Shown here in pieces: positions 1 to 23,940 of a DNA stretch of 25,994 bases. A program made the position numbers and the translations under genes. The stretch comes from Cochliopodium minus. Taxonomy: Eukaryota; Discosea; Himatismenida; Cochliopodiidae. Position 1 is the first letter of the stretch; each line of letters starts with the position of its first letter. The stretch covers positions 50,529 through 76,522 of the forward strand of contig JAMYWO010000185.1 in assembly GCA_024220525.1 (NCBI GenBank). The letters run 5' to 3'. The notes beneath the pieces are model-generated. The model did no database searches and had not been told where the DNA came from. It saw only the letters and a program-made list of their open reading frames with translations.

Positions 1-77
1 TTTATTTATTTTATTTATTTTATTTATTTTATTTATTTTATTTATTTTATTTATTTTATTTATTTTATTTATTTATT
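1..77. repeat. Period-9 AT microsatellite at left edge
   Basis: An almost perfect tandem run of the 9-mer TTTATTTTA begins at the first base and stops just inside the reading frame of the ZNG1 N-terminal part. The same 9-mer makes up the right end of block 2 (about 23985-24023). Read on the minus strand it is intron-like sequence of the ZNG1 gene. Its place at the very edge suggests the assembly broke in it. Confidence 0.9.
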
Positions 78-88
78 GAGAATTATGC

Positions 89-873
89 CTTGTTTTTTCA
101 ATCACAGCTAACTGGTTGATGCTTTTGATCAAGCGAAGAACATTTTCCATAGTATTTTCATCGACAAGATCCATTTTATTGATGATAATTCTATCTGCGA
201 AAGCAATTTGTCTTTGTGCTTCGTTGACACAATCTACCTTCTTTTCCTGGAATAATTTTTGTAAATAAAATAATTTTGTTTAAATAATTTTTCAATAAGA
301 TTTTTTAGAGATATACCTTGATTTCGGTGATTATATTTTTAGCATCTACAATGGAGATAACGGAATCCAAGTAAACAGAACTCATTAATTCTTCATCAAC
401 CCAAAAGATAGAAATGATGGCTCCTGGGTCAGCCATTCCAGATGATTCAATTACAATGTAATCCAAATCATATTTCTTTTTTTCAATCAAATTTTCAATA
501 GTCACCAACAAATCATCTCTGTCAATAAATAGATAATCAATTGAAAATCATGTTGATCTTTTTTTTCTTATAATTTTTTGATTTTTTTTTTTTTACTTTA
601 CAGTACAACAAACACATCCATTATTCAATTCGAGCCATTCAAAATTTTTATCTCCTTCCTCACTTACAATCATAGCTTCTTCTATCCCTAAATCCACCCC
701 AAATTCATTTTGGAGGACTGCAATCTTTTTCCCTTTTTGATTGGTCAGGATATTTTGCAAGAGGGTTGTCTAAAAAATGGATAAATTCGAAAAAATTAGA
801 AAATTAATGTTAATTCACCTTTCCAGAACCCAAATATCCTGTTAACAATGTGATTGGTATTTTTTTCTTCCAT
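89..873 (-). CDS. ZNG1: ZNG1/CBWD-type zinc chaperone GTPase, N-terminal part
   Basis: COG0523 (CobW) G3E GTPase of the ZNG1 group, which in animals and yeast delivers zinc to methionine aminopeptidase 1. Exons are 819-873, 597-769, 317-518 and 89-246. Seen: P-loop GYLGSGKTT near residue 15, the metal motif GCVCC near residue 70, the DPGA/FWVDEEL region, and NKMD near residue 166. Three introns are GT-AG; the last donor is GC (AAG|GCATAA). The C-terminal domain is absent here but lies at 23364-23904 and fits in frame. The ATG at 871-873 is one base out of frame with the P-loop frame. A 7-A run lies between them and no other ATG is nearby, so a homopolymer length error is likely. The CPELVPI-like N-terminal motif of animal ZNG1 is not seen. 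Family assignment is firm; the ZNG1 subgroup rests on close resemblance along both parts. Confidence 0.9.
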
Positions 874-975
874 TTTTTTTTTTTTTTTTTGATCAAAATT
901 AATTTAAATTGAATTATAATAATTGTGTTTAACAAAGAAAAAAATAGTTTGATAGGATTTGAGTAATTAAATTTT

Positions 976-3900
976 TTATAACTGCTGAAAATGACAAAGA
1001 TATTTGATAATGTTCAAACAAATTCCCCTCACAAGAACTTTAGACTGATCCTTTCTGCTTTCTCTTCTAAACTTTGAAATCAAAAACAAAACAATGATTT
1101 GCCCACCCAACTCTTTTTTAAAGGAAAAGTAATTGTGATATTCACTCTTCCATTCTACTCTTCTTTTTGACAATATTTCTTTCAAAGAAGAGACATGTTT
1201 TTCTTTGTCCTCATTATCTATTGAAATTAGCCTGGTTAAATAAAAAGAAACTTTTTCCAAGTCCTCTTTTATTTTTTCTTTCCCAAACTTATAGACTTTT
1301 CTTCAAAAAAAATGATTAAATCAATTTGTTTGGAAAAAAAAAAATAAAAACAAAAAAAAAAATATTGAAACGAGAAAAACAAAAAGAATACATAATATTT
1401 TTGGTTGCTGTAATGTTGTTTAAGCTGCTTGCTTTATCATAAAACTCTATTGCCTTTAGAATATCCTTTTCAACTCCATTTCCTTCTTCAAGAGCAACAG
1501 CTATTTTAAAAAGAATTTAAGAAAGAAAATAAAAGAAAAAAAGAAAAATATTTAAAAATAAATAAAAATATTAAAATAAATAAAAATATTAAAAAATATA
1601 AAAATATAAAAATATTTTAAAAATATTTTAAAACCGTAATTGTTCATTGCAAGAACACAACCTAAGTCAATTGATTTCAAGAAATAATAATTTGCTTTCT
1701 CAAAATTTTGTGGAATTTCTTCGCCTTGCTTGTACAACAAAGCCAAATGATTGTAAGATTCTCCATGTCCATTTTTACCTCCTTTGATAAAGTATTCTAT
1801 TGCCTTTTGTACATTCTTTTCAACTAGTTTCCCTTTTTTTAAAAAAAAATAAAAAATAAAATAAAATTAATTTTAAAATATTTTAAAATAAAAATAAAAA
1901 ATAAATAAAAATAAATAAAAATAAATAAAAATAAATAATAATAAATAATAATAAATAAAATAAATAAAAAGAAGTAAAGATTTGACCTCCTAAGAACAAG
2001 AAAGCGAGATGGTAAGTGGAGTTGTTATTTCCCAACTTGCTGCTTTTTAAAAGGTACTCCATGGCTTTTTCGTAGTTTTTGGGGATAGAATTTCCTCTTT
2101 CATACATCAAACCTTAATTAATCAATAAAAAATAAATAATGTAAAATAAATAATGTTGAAAAATAAATAATGTCAAAAAATATATAATAAAAAATAAATA
2201 ATGTAAAAAATAAATCAAACAAAACTTTTTTACCCAGATTGTCTATTTTTTATTTAAATGTTTAAAAATTAATTATTTTTTTTGTTTAATTTTTTTTTGA
2301 TTTACGAATAGCAGTTGTATCTCCCAGTTGACCTGCTTTTGACAACAGCTCAACACATCTCTCCACATTTTTTGGAACATCTAAAGCCCCAACTTTATAT
2401 AATCTACACAAATAAATGTGAAAAACAAAATTTGTTTAATAAAAAATTATTTTTTTAAAAAAACTTTTAATTACATTGCTAAATTCTAAGAAATAAATTG
2501 AGAAATAAATTAATTTTAAATGTTAAATATTTTAAATATTAAATATTAAATATATTAAATATTAAATATTAAATTTTAAATTTAAAGTATTAAATGTTAA
2601 GGAATTTTTTTTTTAAAAAAATTTTTTTTATACGTTCATGGCACTAGTGTGCTTGAGGGAAATAGCTTTTTCGTACAATTCGACTGCTTTCTTCAAATTT
2701 TTTTCTGTTCCCAAACCCCTTTCGTACATTATTGCTAGATTGTATCTTTCAAAAAAAAAAAATGATAATAAATATTATAATAATGATAAAAAAAGCTTAT
2801 AAAATATTATAATAATAATTATAAAAAAAAAGAAAATTAAAAAAAATACAAAATAAAAATAAAAGAAAATTAAAAAAAAATACATAGCAATTGGATGTCC
2901 CAAATCACTTGCTTTGGAATACAACTCCAATGCTTTTTCATAGTTTTTTTTGACAATTCTTCCTTTCTGATAAATCAAGGCCAATTCAAACCTTTTCTTT
3001 TTAATTTAAAAAAAAAAATTTAAACTGGTGTCAATTTTTTGGGTTACATAGATTCTTGGTTTCCTGCACTCACAGATTTTTCAAAAAGTTCAATGGCTTT
3101 CACTTCATTAATTTGAGTTTTCCTTCCGTTTGAATATAACCTTTGTTAATAATGTGTTTATTAAACTAAAAAAGATTTTTTAAAAAAAATTTTTTTTTAC
3201 ACAGCAAGATCATTGGTGGCCTAGAAAAAGAATGATCATTATTTCAAAATAAAAATTGGATTACATTAATGCTGTAGAGTTTTGCTTTTTCAAAGTATTG
3301 TTTTGATTTTTCAAGATCTCTGGTAAAATAAACGCCAGTATCATAAAGTACGCTCAAATATAACATGGCTCTAACATATCCTCCATCTGCTGATTTGTGA
3401 AACAACTCTGATGCCAGTTTTATATTCATTTTCACTATTATCCCTTTTTCATAGTAATAAGCTAAGTGATAAGTTGATATCATATTTCCTATCTCGCTTG
3501 CCCTTTTAAAAAGATTGAATGCTTTCTCCCTCTTTTTTTTGGAATTTGATTCTTTGTATATCCTCTTTTTAAAATTGAAGAAATTTAATTTTCAAAATCT
3601 TTATAGTTTTATGTTGGAAATGATTGAACTCTTTTGTATCAAAGAATATAATTATTAAATTTAGAAATTTTTACAGCCATCTCATTCATGGAACATACGT
3701 TATCCAAAAGAATTGATTGTTTATAAAATTCTTTTCCTTTAATTGTATCTCTGAGCATATAAATATTTCCAATCTTATATAAACAAAATCCTTTCTGCAA
3801 TTTGGGAGTTGATTCCAAATTATTGAATTTAAGGAAATATTCCAAAGCTAGATCTTCATTTGCCTCACAATCAAATCCTTCAAGCAATTTATAGCCCATA

Positions 3901-4037
3901 GCAAGAAAATTAGAATCTGCATATTTTAAACATAAAGATTTAGCCAATGGAACTGATTTCCGAGATTTTAATCCATGATATGATTCAAAGAATAATTCCA
4001 TATCAAAGAGTTCATCCATTTCATGAATTGAAATCAT
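976..4037 (-). CDS. Sel1-repeat (SLR) protein, 623 aa, 13 exons
   Basis: Exons (gene order) are 3675-4037, 3265-3564, 3201-3220, 3048-3140, 2884-2991, 2634-2745, 2475-2485, 2306-2403, 2234-2242, 1987-2112, 1635-1832, 1392-1500 and 976-1300. They sum to 624 codons with every junction in phase and GT-AG. The protein is a chain of Sel1-type helical repeats of the form A-x-x-L-A-x-x-Y-x-x-G ... A-x-x-x-x-x-K-A, for example NLAIMYERG and LGLMYERG. Such repeats form a solenoid scaffold; in the Sel1/Hrd3 and bacterial families they hold signalling or degradation complexes together. No signal peptide or membrane helix is visible. The last ~100 residues lack repeats and are unrecognised. Exons of 9, 11 and 20 nt are needed to complete repeat motifs, which supports them. 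The partner and process are unknown. Confidence 0.9.
2121..2217. repeat. Imperfect AAATAAATAATGT repeats in a Sel1-gene intron
   Basis: Four imperfect copies of a roughly 13-20 bp AAATAAATAATGT-like unit lie in the intron between the 9-nt exon (2234-2242) and the next exon (ending 2112). This is low-complexity intron sequence with no coding sign. Confidence 0.6.
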
Positions 4038-4140
4038 TTTTTTTTTGATGCAAAATGAAAAATTTATTTTTTATTTTTATTTATTGAACACTTTTCTTTT
4101 GTTTGAAAAAGATTATTTTTTTGTGTAAAAAACTTCTTGG

Positions 4141-7100
4141 TTAATCATCAATGAATTGTTTGTTGTTGGAAGCAAGAGGAATTTTGGGTATTTCGGTGGA
4201 TTTGATGGTCTCAGCAGTGAAAGTGTCTTCTTCCCTGGTGAGAGATTTCTTGTTGGAAATCTTCTTCATAATGAGAGGAGAGTTATCCACTTGTTTGGAG
4301 CTCGGAGGTTGCGAATCATCAAATATTCTGTTATTGTTGTTACTGTCAAAAAAAAAAATGATAAAAATATAACGAAATCTTTTATGAAAAAATTTAACGA
4401 AAAAGGCAAACCTATTATTGTGATTAGGTTTGACATTAGAAGGAGAGGGGTCATCACCCAAAAAGTGTTTGGGTTTATTGTTGGAAGTGTTGTATTTTGT
4501 AGGAGGAGTTTTATGGTGTGTAACTTTTTTTTTGGTTGTGTGATGTTCTTTTTTAAAAATTAATTTTTTAAAATATATTATATTTTAAAATTATTTTAAA
4601 GTTTATTTTAATTACCATGTTTGTGGATCTTGTCTTTTTGATAGTTTTTGGCGATGTGGTTGTTGTAGTTAAGCTTCAAGCTTTTGCGTTGTTTGTGTTT
4701 GTGGACTTCCTCTGTCATTGTATCCCAATCGTCTATTTCCTAGATAAAATTGAATAAATAAAATTAAATTGAAAAAAATAAAAAATTATTAAAAAAAGTT
4801 ATTTTTTATTTTACGTTAGTTAAAATCAAACGTTGTTTTTGTAGGGAACCATTGGTTTTGTGAGTGATGTTGGAGAGGGTTTCTTTCAACTCTTGGTCTC
4901 CAGTGGAAAGTTTAGCAAGCAATAATGCCTTTTTGTGATTTTTTCTCTTGTACTTCTCTACCTAACCAAAAAAAAAAAAATAAAGAAAAAAAAAAATTTA
5001 AATTTAAATAATAAAAATAAAAAAAATAAAAAAATATATTTACTTTCTCTTGCAAAATTTGAATGGCCTTCTCGTGTTTAGAACAAGAAACAGCGAGAGA
5101 AGGAGAATTACCCTCTTGGTGGTTGAGGTTATTGTGTTTTTTGGATTGGAATTCGAGTTTTTTCTGTTCGAAGAGACGTTTTTTCTTTTCAAAGTTTTTC
5201 TTTTCAATTTTAAATTCATTTTGTTTTTTTAATAATTCCGCTTTTTGTTTTTCCAACTTTTGTTTTTCTATGTTGAAAAGGTGTATTTGTTGTTGGAGGG
5301 AGGAGGGACTTTCCACCGAGTAGTTGTGTTGTCTTTTTTTTAAATAAAATAAAAAATAAAAAAAAATCATATAAAAAATAAAAAATAAAAAATAAAAAAA
5401 ATTATTTTATATTTAATATTTTTGAAAAAAAATTATTTTAAATAGAAATGTGAATGTTAATTTAAAATAATTTTTTTTTTTACGTAGTTTGTTGGTTAGT
5501 GAGATGGTCAGAATAGAGAGGGGATTTGGCGTGGTTGCGGGGAGAAGTTTCCTTGTTGTGAGTGGGTTTCATCAATTTGTTGGTGTCCTTCTTTGTTATT
5601 GTGTTTTTAACGTGGATTGATCTTTTCTTCAATTTATTTGTTGAGCTCTTTTTCTTTTTGTGACTTCAAAAATAATTTTTGAAAATAATTTAAAATCAGT
5701 ATCGAAAAAAATGTAAATTGAACAAAAAAAAAAATGTCAAAATAAATGTAAAAAAAATATTTCTAAACAAAATTAAAAAAAAAAATAAAAATATAATTAT
5801 AAAAAATAAAAAATGAAGGAATATTTCATTAAAGAAAAATAAAAGAAATAATTTTAAAAAAAATAAAAAAATATAATAAAAAAATATAATATTGATAATA
5901 AAATAATAAAAAAAATGAGGGGAGAGTTACACAGGAGTGGCACCAACAGAAGGAGGGTTGTGTTTGGACTTGACAGAAGTATTTTCAAAAATCAACTCGC
6001 CCTCTTCGTCCTCCTCCTTAGGAGTAGGGGGGACATTCTCATCAGGAACAGAATCATCTTCATCAACATGATTGTTAAGAGGGAGACCACCAGAAGGATG
6101 TTTGTGAGAATGAAGAGACTGAAGAGAAGAGGAATGTTTGTTTTCTTGTTGGGGAGTGTTGAGGGGGGAGGAGACACGGTGAGGGGAGAGGATCTTGTCG
6201 ATTTTGGCGGTACGGGAGGTGATGGGCTCGGAGCTGTCGTCTTCGCCGCTGAGGTCTTGTGTGGAGGTGCTTTCTTGGTCGTCTTTTTCTCTATCGCGCT
6301 CTTCGGCCGACTTGTATTCAGAGTGGGGTGACAAGTGTCTTGGTGGTGGGGGTCCTACACATTTTTAATTGTGGTAAAAGAAAAAGAAATAAAATTAATA
6401 AATAATTAAAAAAAATTAATAAATGTCCAAATAAAAAATAAAATAATTAAAATAAAAATAAAAATAAAAATATTCTAAAAAATAACAAAATAGAATGTTT
6501 TGTTAAAATTTTACCAGTTGGAGGAGGAGGGGTGGTAATGGAGAGGTTTGAGTTTACCGAATGAGCTCCTTTTTTGATGGGTTGGTACTTGTTAGGAGGA
6601 GGTTTGGTGTTGGGGAGTGGAGGTGGCTCATTAGGCTCAGAATCATCCTCTGAAAAGTCTATAACAAAATTTTTATTTTATTTAGTTTTTATTTTATATT
6701 TTCATTTTTATTTTCATTTTATTTTTTCATTTAAAATTTATATTTTTATTTCATTTTTATTTTCAAAATGAAGAATATTAATAATATAAATATTAATAAC
6801 ATTAATATTAATTTTTTACCTTTTGTTGAATACTTTTTCTTGAGTTCAGGAGGGGGAGACTGAGGCTCAGAATCATCCACAGAATCGCCCCCAGGGGGAA
6901 CAGGAGGAGGGTGTTGAGGGAGAAACTCGGAGATTCTTTTTTTGCGTAATGGTAAAAATTTGTCCGACAATGTGTCATTCATATTTACTGATGAACGTTT
7001 GTCAATTTCCTAAAAATAAATAATAAAAATTAACTAAAATAACAACATAGATGAAATAATAATTAAAAAAATATAAAATAATTTAATTAACAATAAAAAT

Positions 7101-8502
7101 TAACTAAAAATAACGGTTTTACACTAGAATCATCTTCACTAGAAAAAGGATCATTTTGGGGAGGAGTTGGCGGACGATCACGAGAAGAAGGGATGGTGTT
7201 AAACTTTGAACGACTGTCCGAGCTGGAAGAATCTTCTTCTGAAGGATCTTTGTTAGGCAAAGGAGGAGGGTGTTTGGGTGGTTCATCCTAAAAGTGAAAC
7301 AAAAATATATTATCAAAATAAAAGTATCATAAAAAATTTTGTATAAATTGTCAAATTCAAATATTAATTTATATTGAATGAATATATAATAATTATATAT
7401 TATTCTTCGTAGTGGAATATGCAAGTTTCAAATTTTTTGAAACTTTTTTGTAAAAAAAAAAATATTTTACACTTGAATCTTCCTCTTCATCTGAATAATC
7501 TTCTCCATGTTTTGGGGGAGGAGGTGGAGGAGTGGTGATGGAATGGAGATTGTTGATGTTGCGGATATCTTGCGAAGAGAATTTGGAATCAGTTGCCTTC
7601 TTGAGTTGATAATCCTCCTCACTGGAAGATTCAGGATCATGGATGGGCAAAGGAGGTTTGGGATTGGACTTAAGTTTGTTATTTTGGGATGAATCTTCAG
7701 AGGAATCACTGGGATCACTGGAGGAGGGATCACCTTTAGGGATGGGTGGCAAAGGTGGATGTTGATAATTATCCTCCACTTTGAAATCAGAGAGCTCAGA
7801 TGTGTTGGTTCTGCTGTTCATTTTTTTACGATCCGATATTTTGAATGATCCTTCTGATTTGAGCTCTTTTGTATTGGATTGTGAAATGATTGTTTTTGCA
7901 CTATTATTATCTTCTTCACTGCTGGATGTGGTATCTGATGAATATTGTTTATTATTTATTGGAGGTTCGTTGGGTGGTTCTTCATCAGAATCATCAAAAC
8001 TGGACAAATTCTTTTCAATTAATTCATTTATTTTATTAATATTATTGTGGTGATGGTTTGGTTGTTGAGGTATTGGGGGCAATTTCTCGATACTATAATT
8101 CGAACTATCATCAGTAGAATCGTCGGATGGGGGTGGAGGTACTTTTGGTGTTTTAGGTACTTGTTCTGAATCTGATGTTTCTTCACTATCAAGATTGGAA
8201 TGTTTTGTATGTACTGATTTATTATCTATATGAGGTGAATCTTCATCAGATGAATCTGTTAATTCACTAGATGAATCCTCTGGTGGGATTGGGGGCAATG
8301 GTGGAGGCAATTTTGGTGTTTTTGGATTCATTTCACTTTCTGAGGTTGTTTCATCCGTGCTATCATCTAATTGTGGTATAGGTGGTGGAGGTAATTTTGG
8401 TGCATCATCAGATGACTATTTTAAATATGGTTTTATAAAATTATTCATATGAATTGTTTTGTTTATGGAAATTTTTTTGATTACATCTGAATCTGAAGAC
8501 AT
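4141..8502 (-). CDS. Proline-rich/acidic disordered protein with coiled coil, 987 aa
   Basis: Twelve exons: 8485-8502, 7471-8415, 7123-7287, 6820-7009, 6515-6658, 5931-6354, 5484-5663, 5044-5332, 4815-4961, 4616-4739, 4412-4547 and 4141-4342. All are GT-AG and in phase, 988 codons with TAA. Residues 1 to about 630 repeat a two-part pattern many times: a polyproline stretch such as PPPLPPIP, then a serine/acid cluster such as SSSEED. The first looks like SH3, WW or profilin ligands and the second like casein kinase 2 sites. After residue ~630 the protein turns basic (KKKKSS, KLKKR), then has a Lys/Gln/Glu heptad-like coiled coil (about 700-760) and an H/K/N-rich tail. No folded domain is recognised. 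A multivalent scaffold, possibly actin- or chromatin-linked, is a guess. The first exon encodes only MSSDSD. Two TATAAA elements lie just upstream. Confidence 0.82.
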
Positions 8503-9011
8503 TTATATTCTGTTATATTCTATTATTGTTGAATCTTTATACAGTTTATACTCTTTTTTGTAGGAAGTAATTATAAAAAGATTTACCAATTTTTTTATAA
8601 TTTTTTAAAATCCTGCTTTTCTAATTTCATTATTTTTCTGGAATGCACAATTTTAAATGTTTTGTTAAGACAACTTTTAAATTTCATTATCCTTCAATTT
8701 TGAGAACAATTTTGAAAATTCTAATAGAAAAAAAAAAAAAATCATTTAATTAATTATTTAAAATTTAAATTGAATATTTACAAACTGATAACTTGAGCAT
8801 AAAAAGTTTTTAAAATTATTTGTTTTGGAAGTTTTTGATTAAAATATAAGAAAAAATGAATTACAATCTCAATATTATGTTAAATTAGTTTGCAATTTGA
8901 CACTCAGTTTTTTTGTCTTCACTGAGATTATAAAGTTAATCTGATGTTTTTTAATTATTTTGCAAATGGGATTGATATGTTGTGGAAAAAACAATTAAAA
9001 AAAAAAATCAA
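8503..9011. promoter_or_regulatory. Divergent intergenic region, likely shared promoter
   Basis: These 509 bp separate the starts of the proline-rich gene (-) and the RCHY1-like gene (+). I found no convincing coding frame in it. It contains two TATA-like elements near the minus-strand gene and a small inverted repeat, CTCAG (8903-8907) with CTGAG (8922-8926). Use as a bidirectional promoter is inferred from position only. Confidence 0.5.
8536..8550 (-). promoter_or_regulatory. Two TATAAA elements upstream of the proline-rich gene
   Basis: On the minus strand TATAAA occurs at 8536-8541 and 8545-8550, about 34-48 nt before the ATG at 8500-8502. The spacing suits a TATA box with a very short leader. 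In such AT-rich DNA chance occurrence is quite possible. Confidence 0.35.
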
Positions 9012-10525
9012 ATGGAAGAAGAATACAAAAGATTAATGCAGATCCAAGAAAAAGAAAATGAGGAAATGGAAAAAAAGCTTCAAGGTTTGAAAAATGCTTT
9101 CATAATAAATATTTTAAACATGTTTCCCAAAAATTTCTCGATTAATTTCCCTATTCATCAAAGAAAAGAGAAAAATGATAAGGGAGATCCAAAATTCAAA
9201 GGAATTATCAAATTCTGAAAAATCACAAAAGATTCAAATGATTATGAGTGGAAATTATGATAATACAAACAAAAACAATACCGAAATTAAGAAAAAAGAA
9301 GAGAATTTACCTCAGAAATCATTCCATGTATTCTTTATCCAACATCAATCAAAAATCAACCTATTAAACATTCACTTAAATTTTTTTACCAGAACGAAAA
9401 ACAAAATATATTGGGTTGTAAACATTATAAAAGAGATATCTACATGAAAGCTGCATGTTGCAAGAAATATTATGTAATTTTGTTTTGATTTGAAAAAAGA
9501 GATTCCAAAATTATATTTAATTTAAAAGGTATGCAGATTGTGTCACGATGAAAAAGAATCAGAACATACAATCGATAGATTTGCAACCAAAAAAATGTTA
9601 TGTATGGTAAAGAAAATCATAAATTGTTAAATTTCGTTTACAAATGATTAAAATAAACAGAAATGCAGCACCGTACAAACAATGAGCAATACATGTATCA
9701 ATACTGAATGTGAAAATCACAAAAAGATTTCTTTTTATTATTGCGATGTGTGTAAATTTCATTCTGATGACCCCAAAAAAGAAATTTTCCATTGTGAAGA
9801 ATGTGGATTTTGCAGAGTGGGAACGAAAGAGAACACAGTACATTGTATGAGTTGCAAAGCATGTTTTGCGTAAGAAAATTTTTTTAAAAAATTTTCTTAA
9901 AACCTTATTTTCTTAATAATTAGTATCGATCATAAATGCAAGGGCACGTTGAACAAAGACTGTCCTATATGCACGGAGGATCTTTTCACTTCCACTTTCC
10001 CTGCCATGTACATGAAGTGCGGTCATCCATGCCACATTAAATGTTTTGGAACTTATCTCGAAAAAGGAAACTTCACTTGTCCTCTGTGTAAAAAATTTTA
10101 ATTCTCTCGTTTATGTTCATTTTATTTTGCTTTGTTTGTTTTTATTTAAATTATTTTTTGATTATTTCAATTTTTGTTATTAGGTAAGAGAGCTTGTGTT
10201 GATATGAAAGAAGAATGGAACTATATGGACCAACAAATTCAAATACAACCAATGCCAGAAATGTTCAAAGAAACTACTTCTGAAATAATTTGGTATAAAT
10301 CCTTTTAAAATACTCATTTTCATTTTGTTTTAATTTCTTTGTTTTAATTTCTTTAAATTTATTTTTTTACAAAATAGCAATGATTGCCAAAAATCATGCA
10401 CGGTTTCTTTCCACTTTTTGGGTCATAAGTGTACTTCTTGTGGTAGTTATAATACTGATATCAAATCTCAAACTAAAATGCCAACAAGAGAGGAAATTCT
10501 CGAATTTCAAAAAAATTTTAAATAA
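9012..10525 (+). CDS. RCHY1: CHY-zinc-finger/RING E3 ubiquitin ligase (RCHY1/Pirh2-like)
   Basis: Eight exons: 9012-9084, 9164-9327, 9393-9473, 9529-9606, 9661-9869, 9924-10087, 10184-10292 and 10378-10525; 341 aa. Order: charged coiled-coil N-terminus (about 1-79), CHY zinc finger from GCKHYKRD (about 87) through VCRLCHDE, CTCHY-type zinc finger with FHCEECGFCRVG (about 150-200), RING CPIC...CGHPCH...CPLC (about 215-256), and a C-terminal zinc ribbon with CNDC and CTSC. Animal RCHY1 is about 260 aa and ubiquitinates p53 and other proteins. Plant members of the family act in iron and stress signalling. The extra N-terminal coiled coil makes this one longer. The start at 9012 is the first in-frame ATG after an upstream stop, and an A-run precedes it. 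An AATAAA at 10521-10526 overlaps the stop codon. Substrates are unknown. Confidence 0.95.
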
Positions 10526-10549
10526 ATATTAAATTAATTCAAAAAAAAA

Positions 10550-11635: not shown

Positions 11636-11672
11636 AATTCTCTTTTTCAAATTCTATTATTTCTTTTCATTT

Positions 11673-11683
11673 TTTGGCGCAAA
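11673..11683 (+). promoter_or_regulatory. E2F/DP-like site upstream of gamma-tubulin
   Basis: TTTGGCGCAAA sits 22 bp before the gamma-tubulin ATG, inside a 69-bp AT-rich spacer. It contains overlapping E2F half-sites on the two strands (TTTGGCGC and TTTGCGCC). E2F/DP factors drive cell-cycle genes in animals, plants and many protists. The function here is inferred. Confidence 0.45.
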
Positions 11684-11704
11684 ATAAATAATAAAAAAAA
11701 AAAA

Positions 11705-14700
11705 ATGCCAAGAGAGATAATCACTATACAAGTTGGACAAGTAAACAAATTTATAAAACAAAAGATACTCAAATTGAGATCTATATATAAATGTTGTGCA
11801 TAAGATTATTATGAATAAATGAAACAAATTTTTGATTATATGTGGTTATATAATCTTCCATCTTTGCTCATCATTAAAGATTAAATTTTCACCATATACA
11901 TCAAAATAAGATTATATAATTCATTCAAAATCAATGACGTCAAATCAAGAATCATATTGATAAATGATAAATCAATTTTAACACATAAATAAATATAGTG
12001 TGGAAATCAAATAGGGAGCAGATTTTGGGAGGAATTATGCTACCAACACGGCATAGACGAGAACGGAAACGTGAAAGACTTTACCTCAGAAACACTGGAC
12101 AGAAAAGATGTCTTTTTCTACCAAGCAGACGACGATCACTACGTGCCAAGATCCCTCCTCTTAGATCTTGAAGAAACAGTCCTCAATAAAATTAAAAACT
12201 CCTCCTTCAAGAGGCTTTACAACCAGGAGAACATCTTCTGTCCCAAGGAGGGTGGCGGTGCTGGTAATAACTGGGCTTCTGGTTATTCTAGGGCCGAGTC
12301 TAACTATGAGAGGATCATGGAGATGATGGAGAGGGAGGCTGAGGGTAATTTAATAATTTTTTAGATAATTTTTTTAATTATTTTTTTAATAAATTCTTTT
12401 AAGCAAAAAATTTTATCATTTTTTAAAAATATTTTAAATTATGTTTTTTTTTAAAAAATTGTTTTTTAGTTAATTTTTATTATTTTTTTAAAATAAAATA
12501 AATTTAAATGAACCATTTTTTTTTTAGGAAGTGACAGTTTAGAGGTAATTTTCTTTTATGTTTTTTTAATTCATTATTATTCTTCATTTTTTAACATTAT
12601 TATTATTTCATTTATTTATTTTTATTTATTTTTTATTTCATTTTTTATTTTTTATTTTTTATTTTTTATTTTTTATTTTTATTTATTTTATTTTATTTTT
12701 TATTTCTTTTTAAAATGAATTCAATGAAAAAAAAGGGATTCGTATTGTGCCACTCAATAGCGGGAGGTACAGGGTCAGGTATGGGATCTTTCCTTTTGGA
12801 AAAGTTAAATGACAGATTCGGAAGCAAAAAATTGATTCAAACTTACTCCGTCTTCCCCAACAAAGATGGTATAACCCCAATTTATTTTTTATTTTTTATT
12901 TTTAAAATTTTCATATTTTATTTTTTATTTTTTATTTATTTTATTTTATTTTATATTTTATTCAAAATTTATTTTTTATTTATTTTATTTTATATTTTTT
13001 ATTTTTTGTTATTAATTTATTTATTTCATTTTTATTTTATATATTATATTTTTTGTTATTAATTTATTTATTTCATTTTTTATTTATATTTATTTATATT
13101 ATTTATTTTTATTTTATTTTATTTTATATTTTTTATTTATAATTTTTTTTTTTTTATTTTTGAATTAAAAAGATAACGTGGTGGTGCAACCATACAACTC
13201 AGTGTTGACATTGAAGAGGCTGATTCAAAACGCAGACAGTGTGGTGGTGTTGGACAATGCCGCATTGATTCGTGTCGTTTCAGAAAACAACAGTGTTTTC
13301 AACGAGGGAGGTTTCAATGAGATGAACTCTTTGGTTTCCACCGTCATGGCTGCTTCCACTTCCACCATCCGTTTCCCTGGGTAATCTCCTACCATTTTTT
13401 TTATTTATTTTAATTATTATGTATTATTTATTATTATTTGTTATTTTTAATTTTATTTTATTTATTATATATTATTTATCACATTAATTATTATTTGTTA
13501 TTTTTAATTTTATTTAATTTATTATATATTATTTATCATATTAATTATTTTTTTATTTTTATTTTTTATTGTTTATTTTTTATTTTTTTATTTTTCTACA
13601 AAATAAAGTTACATGAATAACGATCTCGTCGGGCTTGTTGCGTCACTCATACCAACACCTAAATGCCATTTCTTAAGTAAAAAATATAAGAAAAAAATAA
13701 CAACAAAATAATAAAAATTTAAGAATAATTAAAAAATAAAAATAAATAATCAAAATTAAAAAATATTTAAATTAAAATGATTTGAAAACAAAAATAAAAA
13801 AGTTTAAAAATAATTTAAATTATAAAATTTTATTAATTTCATTTTAAAAGTGACTGGGTACACTCCACTTAACATTTATGGAAACAAACAAAACGAACAA
13901 GAGCTCAACGTAAAACGTACCAGCGTAATAGATGTCATGCAAAGACTCTTACAACCCAAAAACGCCATGGTCTCTTGCCCAATCAAAAACAAAGGTTAAA
14001 AAATTATAAAATGAGAATTTAACAAAACACTTTATTTTATTTTTAAATACTTCTTTTAAATTAAATTATTTTTAAATTACTTTATTTTTAAATTACTTTA
14101 TTTTTAAATTATTTTTACTTTATTTTTGAATTAATTTATTTTGTTTATCTTTTTTTTTTTTTTTTTGAAAGGATGCTACCTCTCCATTTTGAACATCATT
14201 CAAGGGAATGTAGATCCTACTCAAGTTCACAAATCACTCCAAAGAATCAAAGAAAAAAAATCCATCAAATTCATGCCTTGGGGTATTTATTTTGATAAAT
14301 TATTTTATAAATTATTTTAATATTTAATAAATTATTTAAATTATTTAATAAATTATTTTATAATTAATTATAAAATTTATGATTTTAAATTGTTAAAATA
14401 ATTCGAATTATTTTTTTAGGACCAGCTTCCATTCAAGTGGCACTCGCCCAACAATCTCCCTACGTGAAAACCGTCAACCGTGTGAGCGGACTCCTCATGG
14501 CCAACCACACCTCCATCAGGTCCCTCTTTGAAATGAACCTCAACCAATACGACAAACTGAGAAGTAAAAACGCTTTCATTGACAACTACAGAAAAGAAAA
14601 GATGTTCTCTGACAGTTTGCAAGAATTTGATGATTCCAAAGAAGTCATTGCTAATCTCATTGAGGAGTACAAGGCTGCCGAGAGGGATGATTATATTGAG

Positions 14701-14766
14701 TGGTCTTTGAAGAACGCCAAGTTGCAGGATGATGAGAAGGAAGGAAAAAACTCCAAAATTTTTTGA
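11705..14766 (+). CDS. TUBG: Gamma-tubulin, 469 aa
   Basis: Nine exons: 11705-11740, 11999-12344, 12528-12544 (17 nt), 12736-12868, 13173-13380, 13609-13676, 13851-13994, 14172-14282 and 14420-14766; all GT-AG and in phase. The start [12 protein letters not shown], then [32 protein letters not shown] and the tubulin signature GGTGSG (143-148) identify gamma-tubulin, the GTP-binding core of the microtubule-nucleating ring complex at centrosomes and basal bodies. Compared with human TUBG1 from memory, about three residues are missing before VVVQPYNS, and the flanking intron has no internal AG that could hide a microexon. The C-terminus carries a lysine/acid-rich tail ending in IF. Intron 1 is unusually complex, and an E2F-like site lies just upstream. 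The stop is TGA, unlike the TAA of its neighbours. Confidence 0.98.
11834..11855 (+). other. Perfect inverted repeat in gamma-tubulin intron 1
   Basis: GATTATAT at 11834-11841 is matched by ATATAATC at 11848-11855 around a 6-nt loop (GTGGTT). A third related copy, GATTATATAA, lies near 11910. This could fold in RNA or be a protein site. AT-rich palindromes also arise by chance. Confidence 0.4.
11935..11942 (+). promoter_or_regulatory. CRE-like palindrome TGACGTCA in gamma-tubulin intron 1
   Basis: The 8-bp ATF/CREB consensus TGACGTCA occurs once, in an intron with very little G or C. Together with the E2F-like site it hints that intron 1 may hold regulatory DNA. Inference only. Confidence 0.25.
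13001..13094. repeat. Two-copy 47-bp tandem repeat in gamma-tubulin intron
   Basis: A TTTTGTTATTAATTTATTTA-containing unit occurs at about 13004 and again at 13051 (period 47) in the intron between exons 4 and 5. It is AT-only, intronic and probably slippage-derived. Confidence 0.6.
13434..13547. repeat. Two-copy 57-bp tandem repeat in gamma-tubulin intron
   Basis: A unit starting TTATTTGTTATTTTTAATTT at 13434 recurs at 13491 (period 57) with a few mismatches, inside the intron between exons 5 and 6. No coding potential. Confidence 0.7.
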
Positions 14767-14890
14767 AGAAAAAAAATTATTATTTTTTAAAATGATTAAT
14801 ATTATAAATTAATTAAAATGAAAATAAATAAATTTAAAAATTTTCTTTATTTGTTTTTTTTTAAAAATATTCTTTTTCCATTCATTTTTT

Positions 14891-16073
14891 TTAAAAGGAA
14901 CTCTTCTTTTGTATGACATCTTGGAGATCTTTGATTTGGCTGATAAATTTTTGTAATTCGGATTTGTCCATTTCGAATGTGAAAACCTTTATTTTTTTTA
15001 AAATAAGATCAAAAAGAGAAAAAACAGATAATAAAGAAATACATCATTGTTATCGTCATGAGTATTTCTGCCTATCATCATTTCGACCAAAGCGGTTGGA
15101 ACATTAAGATCACCTATTTTTTTGAAAATAATAAAATTTCAAAAATTGATTAAAAAAAAAATAATTAAAAATTGTTTGAATGAACCTTGACTCGCGCTTT
15201 TAGTTTGTACGTCAACTCTCCACTCAAGTGATTTTAAAACATTTCCTAAGCGAGATTTTTGTACCATAATATCATGTATTTTGTTTCTTTGAAGAGTCCC
15301 TTGAATAGAAATTGTTGAACAATTTTTAAATTTTATTTTTTTTTTTTTTTTAAAAAAAATTTTTTTCTTACAAAATTTTACAAAAAGATTTTTTTGTTCC
15401 TCTTCAAGACCCTTCACTTTTTTGAGATCTTCTGTGAGTTGAGCAACAGTCCAGTTATTATTTGAAGCATTTTTTAAAATCTGGGTCAGGAGAGCAAAAA
15501 CTCCCAAAATATCTATCCAAAGAATTTTGATTAATCAAATATCTCAAATAAAATCAATATCAAAAGTGACAGATATTTTTAACACGATAAATAAAATCAT
15601 TCATCTCTATATGGAGATTGATATATTTACATGAAATTTTTTTTGTAAGAATTTAATATGCGCAATATAATTTTCAATTATGCAAATTATTTTCCTTATC
15701 AACACATTATTATAATTTGATCAAATTGGCAAAGATAATGTGCAAGTAAATTCAATGAGATATTGATATATTTCTCATGATTGATTATATATTTGTTTAA
15801 TTATATTGAGAATAAGAAATTTCTTTAGAATAATGAAATATTTTTATATATTTTGATTTTTACCTTTATTTGTCAATGGACTATTTGAGAAAGCTCTTTC
15901 TTTGATTATTGGGATGGTGATTGTTTGATCTCCTTCTATATTTTTTTTCACACATTGTGTCAACAAAAACCCAAATTGTTTCTGATCTATTTTGGAAGAA
16001 ACTATTGGAGAAGTATAACTTCATATAAATCAAAATTTTTATAGAAAATAAAGATTGATATACCTGATTGCAT
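14891..16073 (-). CDS. COMM domain-containing protein (COMMD), 189 aa
   Basis: Six exons: 16064-16073, 15864-16001, 15372-15512, 15186-15299, 15043-15113 and 14891-14986; all GT-AG and in phase. The N-terminal helical half (1 to about 110) is followed by the COMM domain (about 115-185) with the hallmark SLEWRVDV (120-127), then VPTALVEMMIG and a final FEMDKSELQKF helix. COMMD proteins form heteromeric rings in the Commander complex, which works with retromer-like sorting of endosomal cargo and with cullin regulation. Which of the ten paralogues this is cannot be said. The first coding exon is only 10 nt (MQS plus one base); its choice rests on phase and is the weakest part of the model. The gene converges on gamma-tubulin with 124 bp between stops. 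Intron 2 (15513-15863) is long and not low-complexity. Confidence 0.93.
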
Positions 16074-16122
16074 TTATGGTTCAATATTTTTTTTTTTCAT
16101 TAAATTAATTTTTCATTTGCAG

Positions 16123-16629
16123 ATTCCAACATTTCTTACTCTATGTAACATCAATGAGTTGATTTTTGATCAGTATCTCCACAATCAAACTTCTTCAATG
16201 GAAAAAATTCTGATTCTTTCAAAATTTTGCTCTCATTACTTGGAAGAATCATGTCGAATGATATCATAAAGTAAGAAGTTGATTCTGGGGTTGGAAAAGA
16301 GAGAGCTGCAAAATTTGATCGAAAGTAGTTTTGCCTAATTCTGAAACCAATCAACAATAGAGACAATGGAATCAAGAGGAGATCCAAGATTCAGTTTTCA
16401 TCCATAGGGAGTTTTAATACTGTATTTTCTGGATCAGATGGGCAAAAGTTAAAAAGAAAGAACTTTGTTTAACAACTGCCGATTTTTTAGATTCTGCAAT
16501 GAATAAATTACTTGTTACATCAAAAATCTCAAACAATATGAACCACAAATGTTTGCAGAAATGCTGAGCAATATGAATTATTGTGAAAGAACATCATCTC
16601 AATGCGAACAGTTAAAAGAGATTTATTAA
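16123..16629 (+). pseudogene. Possible decayed coding region of unknown family
   Basis: In the 710-bp gap between the COMMD and ankyrin genes the DNA is less AT-rich than introns or spacers, and protein-like stretches appear on the plus strand. One is a Cys/Leu/Ser-rich stretch of about 48 residues (with CNINELIFDQYLH). Another in the same frame includes KKLILGLEKRELQNLI. Later stretches in other frames include LTTADFLDSAMNKLL and QMFAEMLSNMNYCERTSS. Stops and at least one frame change interrupt them, and I could not build a clean spliced model. I recognise no family. A 78-codon open frame also exists on the minus strand (16151-16387), so the coding strand is uncertain. Confidence 0.3.
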
Positions 16630-16783
16630 ACATTTGTGGCTTAATATTAAATTTATAAATTTGTTACTAGAAAAAATAAATGAGAAATTTAAATTTTAAT
16701 TTCTCTGTCTGAGTTTGCAGAATTTTCTTTCAATTTTCTTTCAGAAACATTTAATTGTTGTTGGCGTTAAACCGTTTTCAACT

Positions 16784-19700
16784 TTACCACCTGTCTTTAT
16801 AACCTCCATATTCTCGATAATTTTGGTATCCTCGATAATCATCAGAATCGTCCGAAAAATATCCTCCAGACATATCATTTTCATCAAATGAATATTCATT
16901 CTGTGCTTCTGATGGATCTGTAAATTCAATATCCTTTTAATTTTGGAAAAATTTGAGAAAAATATTTGTGAAAAAAAAAAAGATTTACCTGATCATTTTC
17001 ATATGAATTCTAAGAAAAACAAAATTTAACCTTAATAAAATAAAATTATTAGAGTTACTTCTTCTTTATCTTTTATCTCGGATAAATTGAAAGATTGTGG
17101 AAAATGTATGGTATAATCGTATTTAGAGGTAAGGAAAATAATTCTGTTAAATAAAGGTCTTGGTAATTTGAGATTCTTGTTTGGAAGATGTTTGTTGCAA
17201 AGAAGAAATATAAAAATTAATTTCTTGAAAAAAGGAGGAAAGAAATGATGACGAGTAGGATTCCAAACAGATTTCTTGGTTATATATTCTTCCAAAATGA
17301 TTTTGCATTCTTCTTTGGAGATATTAATTGCCTAAAATAAAAAATTTGAATAGATAATTAAAAATAAAATCCAAATTTTAACAATTTTTTTTTTTTTTAC
17401 ACTTCGACCATCAAAGCTTAAAAAAGGAATTACATGTCTAGCCAATAAGAAGAGAGTTATTTCTACGTTATTCTGTAACACAGAAAAGAATAGAGAGTTT
17501 CTTTTTTGATCATTTATTTTGTGTTCGTTTGCTCCTTTCTCAACAAGAAGTTTTACTATCTTAAATTCAATTGTTTTATTTTTAGAAAAATAATCCACAA
17601 AAATTTTATCTAAAATTTGTGGTGAAGTAGAAATAGTGAGTAATTTGTTGAGAATGGAGGGAAGAGGAGAATTAATAATGTAAGAAAAAAGCAAATTTTC
17701 TACAAATTTGGAATCTATTTTTGTTAAAAAGAAATCAATGATATCTTCGTTTATATCTGTAACATTTTCGAGATAGATCTTCAAAATATTGGGGATAGAA
17801 ACTTTTCTTGTTGAGATTTTTTCAAATAAAGAAGAGATGTATTGGAAAGATATGACGTTGGTATCGCAAATTAATTTAAAATGATTATCGAAACTATAAC
17901 TAAAAGAAATGAGAACATTTTGGTTTAAAAAAAAAGAAAGAATTTTTTTATCAATTCTTTGTTTTGAAAGATAATTCGTCAAAATTTCTTCCTTCATAGT
18001 TGGTGTAGAGTTGTTTGTCAACAATTTTAGAGTTTCAATATTATTGTTATTGATCAAAAACTGTGAGACACATCTTTTATTTTTTAAAAAAAGAATAATG
18101 TATATTGATTAAAAAAATGTATATTTATTAAAAAAATGTATTTTGATTAAAAATTTACTCTGATGTCACTTTTGCATTTTTGAAAATCAAATATTCGATA
18201 GTATCATTATTAATTGAGAAAGAACAAACTGTATCAAGCATTTTGTTGAAACACTCAAGATGGATATCTGCTTTTTTGTCAACGAAGAGTCTAATGATGG
18301 AAATGTTTTCAGTTTTATCATTATGAAAATTTCTTTCCATAAAATTTTTTAGGAATAAATTGTATCTTTCGCTTTCAAAGTCATTTCTCTCCAACAAAAG
18401 TTTTACTGTTTCAAGACTGAGGTTTTTAAAATTGGAAAGAATGTAAGAAAAATCATCCGTAGAAACACTGAGTTTCTTTTCGAGAAAGAAAAAGAAAAGA
18501 TCAGAGTATTGATCAATTTTTTCGGAACGAATGATGGACTGATAAGATTTGAATTTTTCTTGTAGGTGATAATTGACATCCGCTTTGTTTTGCAACAATA
18601 TTTCAATGATGTTTTTGTTGATTTTTGAAAGAGAGAAAGAATTACTGATGTAAAGACACAAAGTTTCTGTAAAATATTTGGCTCCATTGGAAATTATTTT
18701 TTGGATGAGATCAAGGTTGGGATTGGAAGTGATGCACAGATAAAAAAGAGATGTTTTTTCGATATTTGGTGTTACTTTAACTAATATTCGGTGACTTCTA
18801 TAGTCATCCTGTATAAAATAGTTTACATTTCTAGCTTTTGTGATAAACAAATCAATCATTTCATAATTACTTAAGGTATTTTTTGAGCATAATTTTAAGA
18901 GAGAAGGAGAACAATCAACGCCTAATTCAAAGAACAAGTTTAGTATCTCTTTATTTACAAGACCATCTTTTTTTTCAACATATTGGCTCAAACATAAAGG
19001 AAGATTTTCATTGTAATACTTGGTGAGGAATTTCACAATTTCAAATTTAGGATTACTGGTCCCCAAATAACTCAACAGTGGATTTGCAATGATGTTGTAA
19101 TTATTTGGTGTTCTAAAATAATATTTTTTCATGACTATGTATTGGATTGTTTCCATAGAATGAGAAATATGCTTGTGTTCAAGGTAAAGTTGGAGAGCAT
19201 GATTTGGATCAGCATTAAAATTAAGAAGAGTTTTCATCATTTCAAGATTTGGATCGTTATAATCAAAAATAAGTGTCAGAGGATTGCTTTGGCTTATGCT
19301 ATCTCGAACATGTACCCTTACTTTTGAGTTTTGAGAAAGAAGTAGATATAAGATTCCATTTTTTTTGTTGGAAGAGCAAATGGACCAAATTGGCGATCTT
19401 TTGTTAGGTTCATAAGTTGGCTGAGCTCCTTTATTGAGAAGAAGTTTCACAAGGTTTTTTTTGACATCTTTTCTTTTGCACAATTTCAATAAACATTGAT
19501 CCAAATTGTTGGTTTCATTCAAAAAGCTTTTAAACTCTTCTTCTTTCAAAATTTTTTCTCCTTCGATGTAACTTAGAAGATTCTTTTTGGGAGATTCATT
19601 TCTAAGGGATGAATGAGTAGGTAGCTTGACATTTGAAAATATAATTTTGTTAGAATTTTGGATGTTTGCTTTGTTTTCAATCAAAAATTGTATCATTTCT

Positions 19701-22357
19701 TGATTTTGATTTACTCGTCCATGCAAATTAGAAAGATCATGCTGAGAAAAATCAAAATGAGAAAGATCAATCTTTTTATTGATAATGTTTTGGAGTATTT
19801 CTTTTTGAGGATAAATAGTGATGATTCTAACAAAATCTTCTTTCCTGATCTGTGAATGTGGGACAAATTCAAGGAGAAAGGATATGACTTCTGTTCGCAG
19901 TTTCCCAGAATGGCATAAAAAAGTAGTTGGATTATTGATGGTTGCATTTGACTCTACAAAATATTTTATCAAATCCAATTTGCAATTGATGTTTTGGATG
20001 TATACTTCCATAACCCTTTGCAATTCTTTCATGTTTTTCTTTTTCAAAAAATCGATTAGCTTTTGTGAGAACTCCAAACAATCAACTTCTTCATCTCCAA
20101 AGTATTTGTTGATTCTTGTATAAACAGTGGATTGGAATGAAGAATATGAATGAAATTTATTTGCGAAGAATTTTAAGAGAGAAAGATTGAGAGGTTTTTT
20201 CAACAAAAAGTTTTTATCAATCGTTTTTAAACTTGTAAATATGAGATCATCTTCCAATTTAGGAACATATCCATTATCAAGCAAATATTCAACAGATTTA
20301 GCATCTTTATTTGATAGAGATTCAGAAAAACCAGGAATAGAAATAGCACCGAGATTAGTGAGATAATTAACAAATTGATGGTTATGTTTGAAAAGACAAA
20401 CAAGTGTTTTTCCTTTTTCATCAAAACAGTTGATATTTGCTTTTTTTTCAACTAAAAGAATCAAATTGGCTGTTTTTATGTTGTGTAATGAAGAAGCTTT
20501 GAATAAAGCTTCTTCAATCTCTTTTTTCTCAAAACTGAGGTTTTTTAAAAAAAATTGAAAAACATTGGGATAATTATTGATGATTTTGGAAATGTTTCCT
20601 TTCGGAAAAGCAACACCCAAAGAAAAGAGATACTCAAATATTTCCACTTTTAAATCCCTATAAGGCGAAAAGAAAAAATGAATGCACTGATCAAGGTCTT
20701 TTTGATCGAAAAAAGGAACAAATTTCTTTAGAAAAAGCAAATCATTGTGAGAACAAACATGTTCAATCAAAATGTTGAAATTTTCTTGAGAAAAATTTTT
20801 GGGAGAGATGTAGTTGAGGAAAAGATCGATCACATCCATTTTTTCCGTTCCCAAACTGACTAATTTAACAAAACTTTCTTCAATACAAACTCTCTCTCCA
20901 TTCTCCAAAAAATATTTAAAAAGAGAAAATCCCAAACTTGAGTCATCTTTTCTTTTGTCCATACAAGTTGAAGTAATAACCAACAAAATAGAATCAATTC
21001 TGAGATCTATAGGGTTTCTTGTTAAATTGCTCACTTTTGCATGATTAAAGGAGACTCCAAGAATAGTGCCATCGATTTCAAGTTTGTTCAATGCTTGGTA
21101 AGCAGAATTTTGTTCTTCAGAGTTTAAAAATTCTACGAACCCATTTCCTTTTCTCGTAACTCTGGCAAGTTTGATCTCAAAATCTGAAAAAATCTCCGCC
21201 AGATCATTATCTTCAAAATCTTGTGGGAAATCATAGACGTACAGAATGAAACCAGTTTTGGGGTAGATGCACTTGGAATATAATATCTCTACCATGTCCA
21301 GCTTGATATCTTCGTGATAGGTGAGGTAACGAATGATCGAATTTCTTAATTCAAATACATCTATATTTTCAATCAGAAATTTTAAGACTTCTTTGTTCGG
21401 ATTTTTGCTGGAGAAAACATTCTCGAAATTAAAATTTAATAAATCTGCCTTCTTCTCCATCAAAAACGTGATAATCCCCAGGTTTGTATCTTCAATATTT
21501 CCATATAGGTGATTATTTAGACATTCAGACATCAGCTCCTCTATTGTGTTGTTATCATTTTGATTGGATTCCATCATTTCAAGTAAATAATTGAATACTT
21601 CTTTGTTGGGATCTTTTGATTCACACAAATTGATCATGCATTCTCTCCAAATACTTTCCCGCTTTTCTGCTTCCTTTTGAGAGACATTCTTTTTTGATTC
21701 ATCAATGAGAAATTTGAGTGTGGTAAGTTTACAACTTGGATTCTTGCAATATGCAATTATTGTGTTGACATACACCAAAGATCCTTTTTCGATCAGATAT
21801 TCGATCAGATCTATCTCAACTTCTATGTTGTAGCAAGCAGATATCAAACATTTGCCAAGGTTTTTTTTCCTATATCCTTTTTCCAAGAAGAAATCAATGA
21901 TATCTTTGCATTCTTTGTTGTGATAGCAAAATATTTCCAGGGGAGAAAATTTATTGAACACATAATTCACATCTGCCTTTTTCTCAATTAAAAATTTGAT
22001 TTTGTCGATTTGCATTTTGCTAGAGGATGCGAATAATCCCTCATTCAAATTTGTTGCTCCACATTTCAACAGAAAATATAAAATTTGCTTATCACAATTT
22101 TCATTCAGGCAACTCACAAGAAAAAATTTTTCAAGTTTGATCCATCCCCTTGATATGAGTTTTTTTATCTTCTCAAATTTCGGACTTGCTGAGGAGCATT
22201 CTTCCATCAATTCTTTTCCCAAATCTTTATTTTTAGAATAGCTATTTTCCGATTCAATTTCATCTTCCTCCACATAATCAACAGTATTAAAATTTGATTT
22301 TAAATTGAGAATGAAGAAAGAAAGATTTGAAAGATATTTTTGAATTCTGTTTGTCAT
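16784..22357 (-). CDS. Giant ankyrin-repeat protein with internal RRM, 1771 aa
   Basis: Five exons: 18159-22357, 17401-18073, 17059-17331, 16989-17009 (21 nt) and 16784-16933; 1772 codons. Most of the chain is degenerate ankyrin-like repeats of about 35-40 residues ending in motifs such as FLIEKKADVNYV, LLLNKGAQPTYE and LLQNKADVNYH. At residues about 370-445 the repeats are broken by a canonical RNA-recognition motif: RNP2-like ILYVYDFP, then RNP1-like GNGFVEFL and a closing ILGVSFNHAK. After the repeats comes a module starting near VWNPTRHHFFPP (about 1646) with LLLCNKHLP-type hydrophobic helices, reminiscent of the C-terminal module of many protist ankyrin proteins and perhaps F-box-like. 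The tail (1723-1771) is Gly/Tyr/Asp/Arg-rich. An RNA-linked adaptor is a reasonable inference; targets are unknown. The long first exon contrasts with its intron-dense neighbours. Confidence 0.93.
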
Positions 22358-22524
22358 TTTTTCTTTTTTTTAATTTTTATTTTAATAATGTTTAATAATT
22401 TCTTTGGAGTTAAATTTCAACAGTCAACGTTTTATTTTGAACGAAGAATTTCAATTGTATGAGAAGGAATAGAAGAAGATAAAAGAGGGTTTTTTATTTT
22501 TTTAAAATGTGTATCTATTGGACC
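22358..22524. other. Upstream region of the ankyrin gene, end of block 1
   Basis: AT-rich spacer with no convincing coding frame. An A-rich run (minus strand) directly precedes the ankyrin ATG. The last bases before the N read, in the frame of the following kinase exon, as VYLLD, which faintly resembles the VIHLD of the second kinase copy. The DNA before that is not kinase coding, so I treat it as unresolved. Confidence 0.5.
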
Positions 22525-22525
22525 N
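22525..22525. other. Single N: block 1/block 2 junction
   Basis: One ambiguous base lies exactly where sequence identical to the middle of a kinase exon begins (compare 24345 onwards). The kinase exon has no 5' part here. This looks like a join between separately assembled pieces, with an unknown true gap. Confidence 0.75.
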
Positions 22526-23300
22526 ATTCAATGGAGAAGCACATGGATACTTGCCTGTTGTCAACAATTATTTCTCTATTGGTATTGATGCCAAAATTGC
22601 TTACAAATTTCACGAAAAGAGAGAGGCCAATCCCGAAAACTTTAGCAGGTTTTCTTTTTATTTATTTATTCTTATTATTTTATTTATTAAATCTTTCTTA
22701 TTTTAATCATTAAATTATTAAATTATTAAATTAATTTTATAAAGTCAAACAATGAACAAGATCAAGTATGGAGCGTATGGAGCTACAGAAAGCGTAAAGG
22801 GGTTAGAAAAAGAATTCACCATAAAAATAGATGGAAAGGAAAAGAAAATACCATCCATCCAAGGTACATTATTAATTTATTTTATTTTTATTTTATTTTT
22901 GTTAAAAAATAGGGATAATTGTTTTGAATTTGCCATCATGGGCAGGAGGAACAGATTTGTGGAATTACACAAAGTCGGATGAAAAAAAAGGTTGGAAAGA
23001 AAACAAAATAGATGATGGTCTCTTTGAGGTTGTTGGTATCAAATCTTCCATGCACATTGCAAGAATTAAAGTAAATTTTTTTTATTTTTTTTTTTTCTTT
23101 ATATTTAATTTTGTTTTTAAAAACAAAAGGGAAAAATCAGTAGAGGAGCAATAAAAATAGGACAGGGTAAGAAATTGGAGATAGAGCTAAAGGCGGAGCA
23201 CTACTGCCAAATAGATGGAGAACCATGGAAACAAGCACCTTGCACCATCGTTATGGAACACTTCAATAGTGTTCCAATGCTCAAGAAAAAGAAGAATTAA
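22526..23300 (+). CDS. Diacylglycerol kinase, accessory domain only (copy A, 5' part missing)
   Basis: Exons 22526-22648, 22745-22863, 22913-23070 and 23130-23300, ending in TAA. The protein begins mid-exon at [20 protein letters not shown], the start of the DAGK accessory domain. It continues through [48 protein letters not shown] and [10 protein letters not shown], to a short basic end, LKKKKN. Diacylglycerol kinases phosphorylate diacylglycerol to phosphatidic acid. The catalytic half with the GGDGT loop is not present to the left, because the N at 22525 interrupts it. The gene converges on the ZNG1 C-terminal part with 63 bp between stops. Long stretches, including intron ends, are nearly identical to copy B, while other stretches differ strongly. 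Confidence 0.9.
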
Positions 23301-23363
23301 TCCATACACTCAGAAAAAACAGTTTCAAAAAAAAAACATAATTAAAATTTTGATTTAATAATT

Positions 23364-23904
23364 TTAATTTTCGAAACAATTTTTGAACAAAAGAGAGAAT
23401 TTTTGGAGGTCAAGAAATCTACCAATAAAAATGATTTTGTTTGATCTTTCTTCGTTTTCTTTCCAAAGAAGATTGGATTCATTGACAATAAATAAGTCCT
23501 GAACACATTGCAAAGAATATTTGTATTTTTTGCCAACATCCAAAACACCTTTCATTCTATAAATTTCCCAAGTATCCCCTTCTTCTTTTTCCCAAACCAA
23601 AGCGTTCATAAAAAAATTGAATTTTTCCAAATCAACAACTCCCTTTAAAATCAAAGTGACAGTTTTAATATCTTCATCGTGTTTGTGATCATTTATTTTT
23701 TCCACTATTTTCCTTGTCTCCACTTTTTCATTGTGTTGATTGTCATGATTGTGTTTATGATTATTGTCATCACAATGATCATTACAGTTATTTTCTTCGT
23801 GTTGATGGTCATCATGAGGGATATAGTTGTTTGCAACTTTGAGAGAATGGTTTTTGTCAAATGCATTTATCCCCAAAATTTCTTCCACGTTCACTTTACT
23901 AAAA
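23364..23904 (-). CDS. ZNG1: ZNG1/CBWD zinc chaperone, C-terminal part (CobW_C)
   Basis: A single terminal exon whose acceptor is AATAG|TTTTAG at 23905, preceded on the minus strand by the AAATAAAATA repeat. It encodes FSKVNVEEILGINAFD, a His/Asp/Asn-rich stretch with HKHNHDNQH and nearby HDDHQH (likely metal-binding), then the CobW C-terminal domain with RMKGVLDVG and LLWKENEERSNKIIFIGR. These match the corresponding parts of animal ZNG1/CBWD1. No GTPase half precedes it in this block; the GTPase half is at 89-873, ends in phase 2 and fits this exon's phase exactly (AG|T gives Ser). About 180 residues, giving roughly 375 aa for the whole protein, close to the animal length of about 395. Confidence 0.9.
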
Positions 23905-23940
23905 CTATTAACAAAAAATTTTTAGAAATGAGAATGAGAA

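Follow-up and report, generated by a model that had tools for sequence, protein, structure and literature searches.

The CobW/ZNG1-like GTPase gene that appears in two parts about 22 kb apart, both on the minus strand, at the end of scaffold C185 of Cochliopodium minus is very probably split by a scaffolding artefact: the three contigs that make up this end of the scaffold (here referred to as A, B, and C) have been placed wrongly, in an order opposite to the one that their genes support. As a feature of the genome itself, the split GTPase is most likely not real. The evidence comes from the GTPase gene and from a diacylglycerol kinase (DGK) gene that is broken at the same joins.

Layout of the window and its contig joins

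The stretch of DNA that we analyzed (the window; 25,994 nucleotides, C185:50529-76522) forms the right end of scaffold C185, which is 76,522 bases long and belongs to an assembly of 44,654,751 bases in 598 contigs. It is AT-rich, with a G+C content of 26.7%, and a search of Rfam at gathering thresholds gave zero matches within it. Single Ns at positions 22525 and 24024 split the window into contig A (1-22524), contig B (22526-24023), and contig C (24025-25994). Directly left of position 1 lies a run of 11,975 Ns (C185:38554-50528), which we infer to be an assembly gap; long N runs were also present in two of seven 4-kb stretches that we looked at. In principle, a withheld stretch would look the same. 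The features to which we refer are as follows.

1 to 88, minus strand: left end of contig A, where the seam intron begins with its GC donor, and (TTTTATTTA)n; immediately right of the 11,975 Ns
89 to 246, minus strand: GTPase exon 4, ending in the split codon AG (..VIEKT-S); acceptor TATTCCAG
317 to 518, minus strand: GTPase exon 3
597 to 769, minus strand: GTPase exon 2, carrying GCVCC
819 to 872, minus strand: GTPase exon 1, with the P-loop GYLGSGK
22419 to 22491, no strand assigned: contig-end segment found in two places in the assembly, here and at C185:38472-38553 (L005:7943-8024)
22525, no strand assigned: single-N junction of contigs A and B
22526 to 22648, plus strand: DGK second-domain exon in B, beginning mid-exon at the contig edge
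22745 to 22863, plus strand: DGK second-domain exon in B
22913 to 23070, plus strand: DGK second-domain exon in B
23130 to 23300, plus strand: last DGK exon, with stop; resembles the end of domain 2 in the C66 DGK, which has two domains
23364 to 23904, minus strand: last GTPase exon, with the split-codon remainder T, FSKVNVEEILGINAFD.., the CobW_C domain, and the stop
23905 to 24023, minus strand: end of the seam intron, which has (TTTTATTTA)n where B ends on the right and the acceptor TTAATAG
24024, no strand assigned: single-N junction of contigs B and C
24025 to 25468, plus strand: first DGK domain in C (24025-24161, 24328-24462, 24577-24695, 24897-25055, and 25287-25468)
25626 to 25811, plus strand: DGK linker and start of the second domain, followed by a repeat at the scaffold end

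Six of the eight single-N junctions in the stretches examined were flanked on one side by strongly periodic sequence (score of at least 0.85; in one case the flank is only 25 bases long), compared with a background of 0.7% of 4000 60-mers that reached this score. The single-N joins are therefore mostly contig ends at microsatellites. At the junction at 22525, periodicity scoring of the flanks found a microsatellite on neither side, which counts against the misordering account.

The preliminary description had pointed to a 9-bp repeat bordering both halves of the GTPase gene as a sign that they belong together. The repeat is indeed there, with seven perfect copies of the unit TTTTATTTA at the left end of A and four at the right end of B. 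As evidence for the join it is weak, however, since four tandem copies of the unit match the genome 875 times (419 on the plus strand and 456 on the minus strand, overlapping registers counted apart), and we rejected it as proof on this ground. A unit this common accounts for contigs ending at it, but the repeat alone does not identify which contigs are partners. When B and C were compared with the assembly as DNA, the long matches among those scored were to themselves and to each other, the remainder being low-complexity sequence, and no second DNA copy of B or C was found among the matches scored (40 of 52 and 40 of 1307 candidates, respectively).

The two GTPase halves join in frame across the seam

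Joined together, the five GTPase exons give 375 residues in one frame, which does not open with a start codon. Both halves lie where the preliminary description had put them. The one near the left end of the window, with its exons within 89 to 872 on the minus strand, matches Pfam cobW over residues 5-189 (PF02492, E 1.3e-53) and lacks the C-terminal domain; the one at 23364 to 23904 in B, also on the minus strand, matches CobW_C (PF07683, E 3.9e-13). The matching exon phases that it had proposed are likewise present, as AG at the end of exon 4 and T at the start of the last exon together encode a serine, so that the halves of A and B join in frame. The donor at the seam, after 89, is GC (GCATAATT) and not GT, and the seam acceptor ends in TTAATAG. 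Exon 2 encodes NNGCVCCTVK, which places a GCxCC motif, as defined for COG0523/CobW GTPases in PMC10642216, between Walker A and Walker B. The preliminary description had placed the GTPase half at 89-873. Exon 1 extends to 872, but the ATG at 873, which is the first ATG and lies beside a run of A, is shifted by one base relative to the reading frame of the P-loop. No in-frame ATG occurs from the P-loop back to the nearest upstream stop.

We aligned the two halves separately (Biopython alignments) to the best 44 of the 120 GTPase homologues listed. In 31 of these 44, exactly one residue, the one that corresponds to the split codon, was left between the aligned halves, and this residue was serine in 9 of the 31. 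The other 13 homologues had different spacings (0, -2, or -20 to -43); since their printed strings showed no obvious gap, we took these spacings to be slips of the half alignments. P0001, P0003, P0005, and P0015 are reported as single proteins that run through the seam, and the seam residue is serine in P0001, P0005, and P0015 and asparagine in P0003. The best GTPase match was P0001, with 65% identity over 79% of the query. Animal proteins named ZNG1-like were also among the best matches (for example, P0011 at 41% identity), and a search of the PDB at E 0.001 gave no matches beyond YjiA sequences.

Within the 44.65-Mb assembly, there is one close copy for each GTPase half. More distant GTPase paralogues are present on C1, C404, and C55 of the same genome, and all three have an open frame straight through the position matching the seam, indicating that an intron at this position is not ancestral to the group. 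This, the GC donor, the 13 deviating spacings, and the fact that the seam residue is serine in only 9 of 31 homologues count against the misordering account.

A DGK gene split between contigs C and B completes the contig order

Contig C covers a first DGK domain from its middle to its end, then a linker and the beginning of a second domain, and contig B encodes the 3' part of a DGK. The same genome contains an intact two-domain DGK of 794 residues as spliced here, from ATG to stop, at C66:123448-126030 (L054). Its domain order and linker (MLSR.. LLNHQV ..TPF.. INPLSGGQ) are those of C followed by B: the end of the first domain in C resembles domain 1 of the C66 protein (MLSR.., then the linker), and the end in B resembles its domain 2 (short tail and stop). 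Since the domain order of the C66 gene fits C and then B, C precedes B. The C66 gene has three introns as spliced here, whereas the copy on C185 has more, and the C185 gene, unlike that on C66, is broken at contig joins and is without its 5' part. Nothing on C185 left of C matched the N-terminal part of the C66 DGK, and the gap would accordingly hold the 5' part of the gene, some 190 residues long.

Two further proteins bear on this gene. P0123 carries the end of a first domain and continues through the linker into a second, and P0122 is identical to the DGK of B at 138 of 166 residues (83%) and to that of C at 120 of 167 (72%). In a separate observation, the two domains of the C66 DGK aligned as identical at the protein level across most of the 3' part of each, a pattern suggestive of gene conversion or recent duplication.

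The DGK gene thus places C before B and the GTPase gene places B before A, giving the consistent order C-B-A, the reverse of that in the scaffold. According to the simplest reading in the preliminary description, the block with the C-terminal half belongs immediately left of the block with the GTPase half. Our results bear this out: the join is in frame, the halves are complementary and single copy, and there is a 12-kb N gap left of A, whose 11,975 Ns leave room for B. Further support comes from a relative whose GTPase, P0001, runs through the seam and carries the same signature (source ena, 2 contigs, longest 5977) as P0122, the orthologue of the DGK in B; given this equal signature, the two genes presumably share one contig in the relative. 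We propose that the 12-kb N run to the left of A would be the proper place of B and C, that the seam would be an intron with a microsatellite at which the assembly broke, and that the scaffolder may have attached these two small contigs to the wrong end of A. No coding evidence was found that joins the right end of A to B or C.

A duplicated contig end and the alternatives to misordering

Simple misordering does not account for a segment shared by two contig ends, and this counts against it. The segment at 22419-22491 recurs at the right edge of the contig that precedes the 12-kb gap, with 73 of 73 positions identical outside a 9-base indel. No third copy was found in the assembly, also when up to 3 mismatches over 25 bases were allowed. 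A recent duplication or a duplicated contig end would each fit this segment. A dispersed mobile element lying at two similar contig ends was considered and rejected, as a segment found at two places only shows no element family. On the minus strand, the segment could encode the end of a protein (..NPLLSSSIPSHTIEI..LRSK*), too short to identify, and the 9-base indel is in frame with this reading.

At two other places in the same scaffold, L005:114 and L005:4613, which are 4.5 kb apart, contigs begin with identical 60 bases after a single N. The interval between them includes, at L005:2255-4440, what we take to be a ubiquitin-hydrolase-like gene (GLVNLGNTCYFNSVMQ), which extends to about where the single N at 4612 lies.

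A recent segmental or tandem duplication could place the DGK and the C-terminal segment of the GTPase on both sides of A, with the copies collapsed in the assembly to a single one that the scaffolder placed on the right; the GTPase fragment in the right copy would then be genuine, and the left gap would be spanned by the intact gene. We consider this unlikely. The identity of the right end of A with the right end of the left contig, found in no third place, fits a duplication, as does an indel that keeps the minus-strand frame, and a collapsed repeat would leave the left gap too. However, a duplication would leave the DGK order of B and C reversed in the scaffold, and misordering would have to be assumed all the same; in addition, the identical 60-base contig starts at L005:114 and L005:4613 mean that shared contig ends occur elsewhere in this scaffold. 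A window-sized duplicate was, moreover, not found in C185:1-40529, where comparison with the window gave only four short matches by blastn (E 1e-6, low-complexity filter on; longest match, 96 b) and none by tblastx (E 1e-8).

Very improbable, in our judgment, is a circle or tandem array of 26 kb, with the right end of A connected to C, C to B, and B back to A. The order C-B-A is consistent with such an arrangement, and the right end of A is the contig end that adjoins B in the scaffold. Against it, the 155 bases right of the last long open frame of A (18155-22369) contain no match to the N terminus of the C66 DGK, although the A-C join would have to accommodate DGK 5' coding sequence for about 190 residues, and 38.5 kb of other sequence is scaffolded to the left side of A. 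The 24-kb tandem unit or circle that the preliminary description had offered as another way to explain the split is not needed.

We give next to no credence to a naturally split gene whose halves, 22 kb apart, are transcribed separately and trans-spliced from the GC donor at 88 to the acceptor at 23905, because, for all the splice-like signals and the matching codon phase at the seam, each of the two junctions is a contig join marked by a single N, the DGK gene breaks at these points too, and relatives are listed with one protein running through the seam. If the gene were truly split, it would be a trans-spliced metal-chaperone gene of a rare kind, which is not where the evidence points.

Implications and comparison with known systems

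For users of this assembly, the probable misordering of A, B, and C means that the gene order at the end of C185 is unsuited to synteny or split-gene claims, and single-N joins in the assembly are to be read as contig ends.

The gene itself encodes a GTPase of the COG0523 metal-chaperone type with nothing out of the ordinary about it. Like the eukaryotic ZNG1 (CBWD) branch of COG0523, it combines cobW and CobW_C domains with GCVCC and a His-rich stretch before the C-terminal domain. Unlike the ZNG1 proteins reported in PMC10642216, which describes their N-terminal extension, it has no such extension readable ahead of the P-loop, where no in-frame ATG fixes the start; we therefore give its class as CobW-type, with ZNG1 proper as a candidate assignment. 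ZNG1 proper is marked by an extension able to bind the zinc-finger region of MAP1 (methionine aminopeptidase) and by the transfer of zinc to MAP1. A loose PxLVP-like pattern, as defined in this analysis, was present in 22 of the 44 homologues.

Scaffold misordering is a general assembly artefact, in which genes break at placeholder gaps and are collinear under another contig order. The end of C185 resembles it in both respects: the breaks coincide with the Ns at 22525 and 24024 and with the N run left of position 1, and another order makes two broken genes, the GTPase and the two-domain DGK, collinear. It differs from the general case in that two genes here jointly order all three contigs and in that a duplicated contig end is also present.
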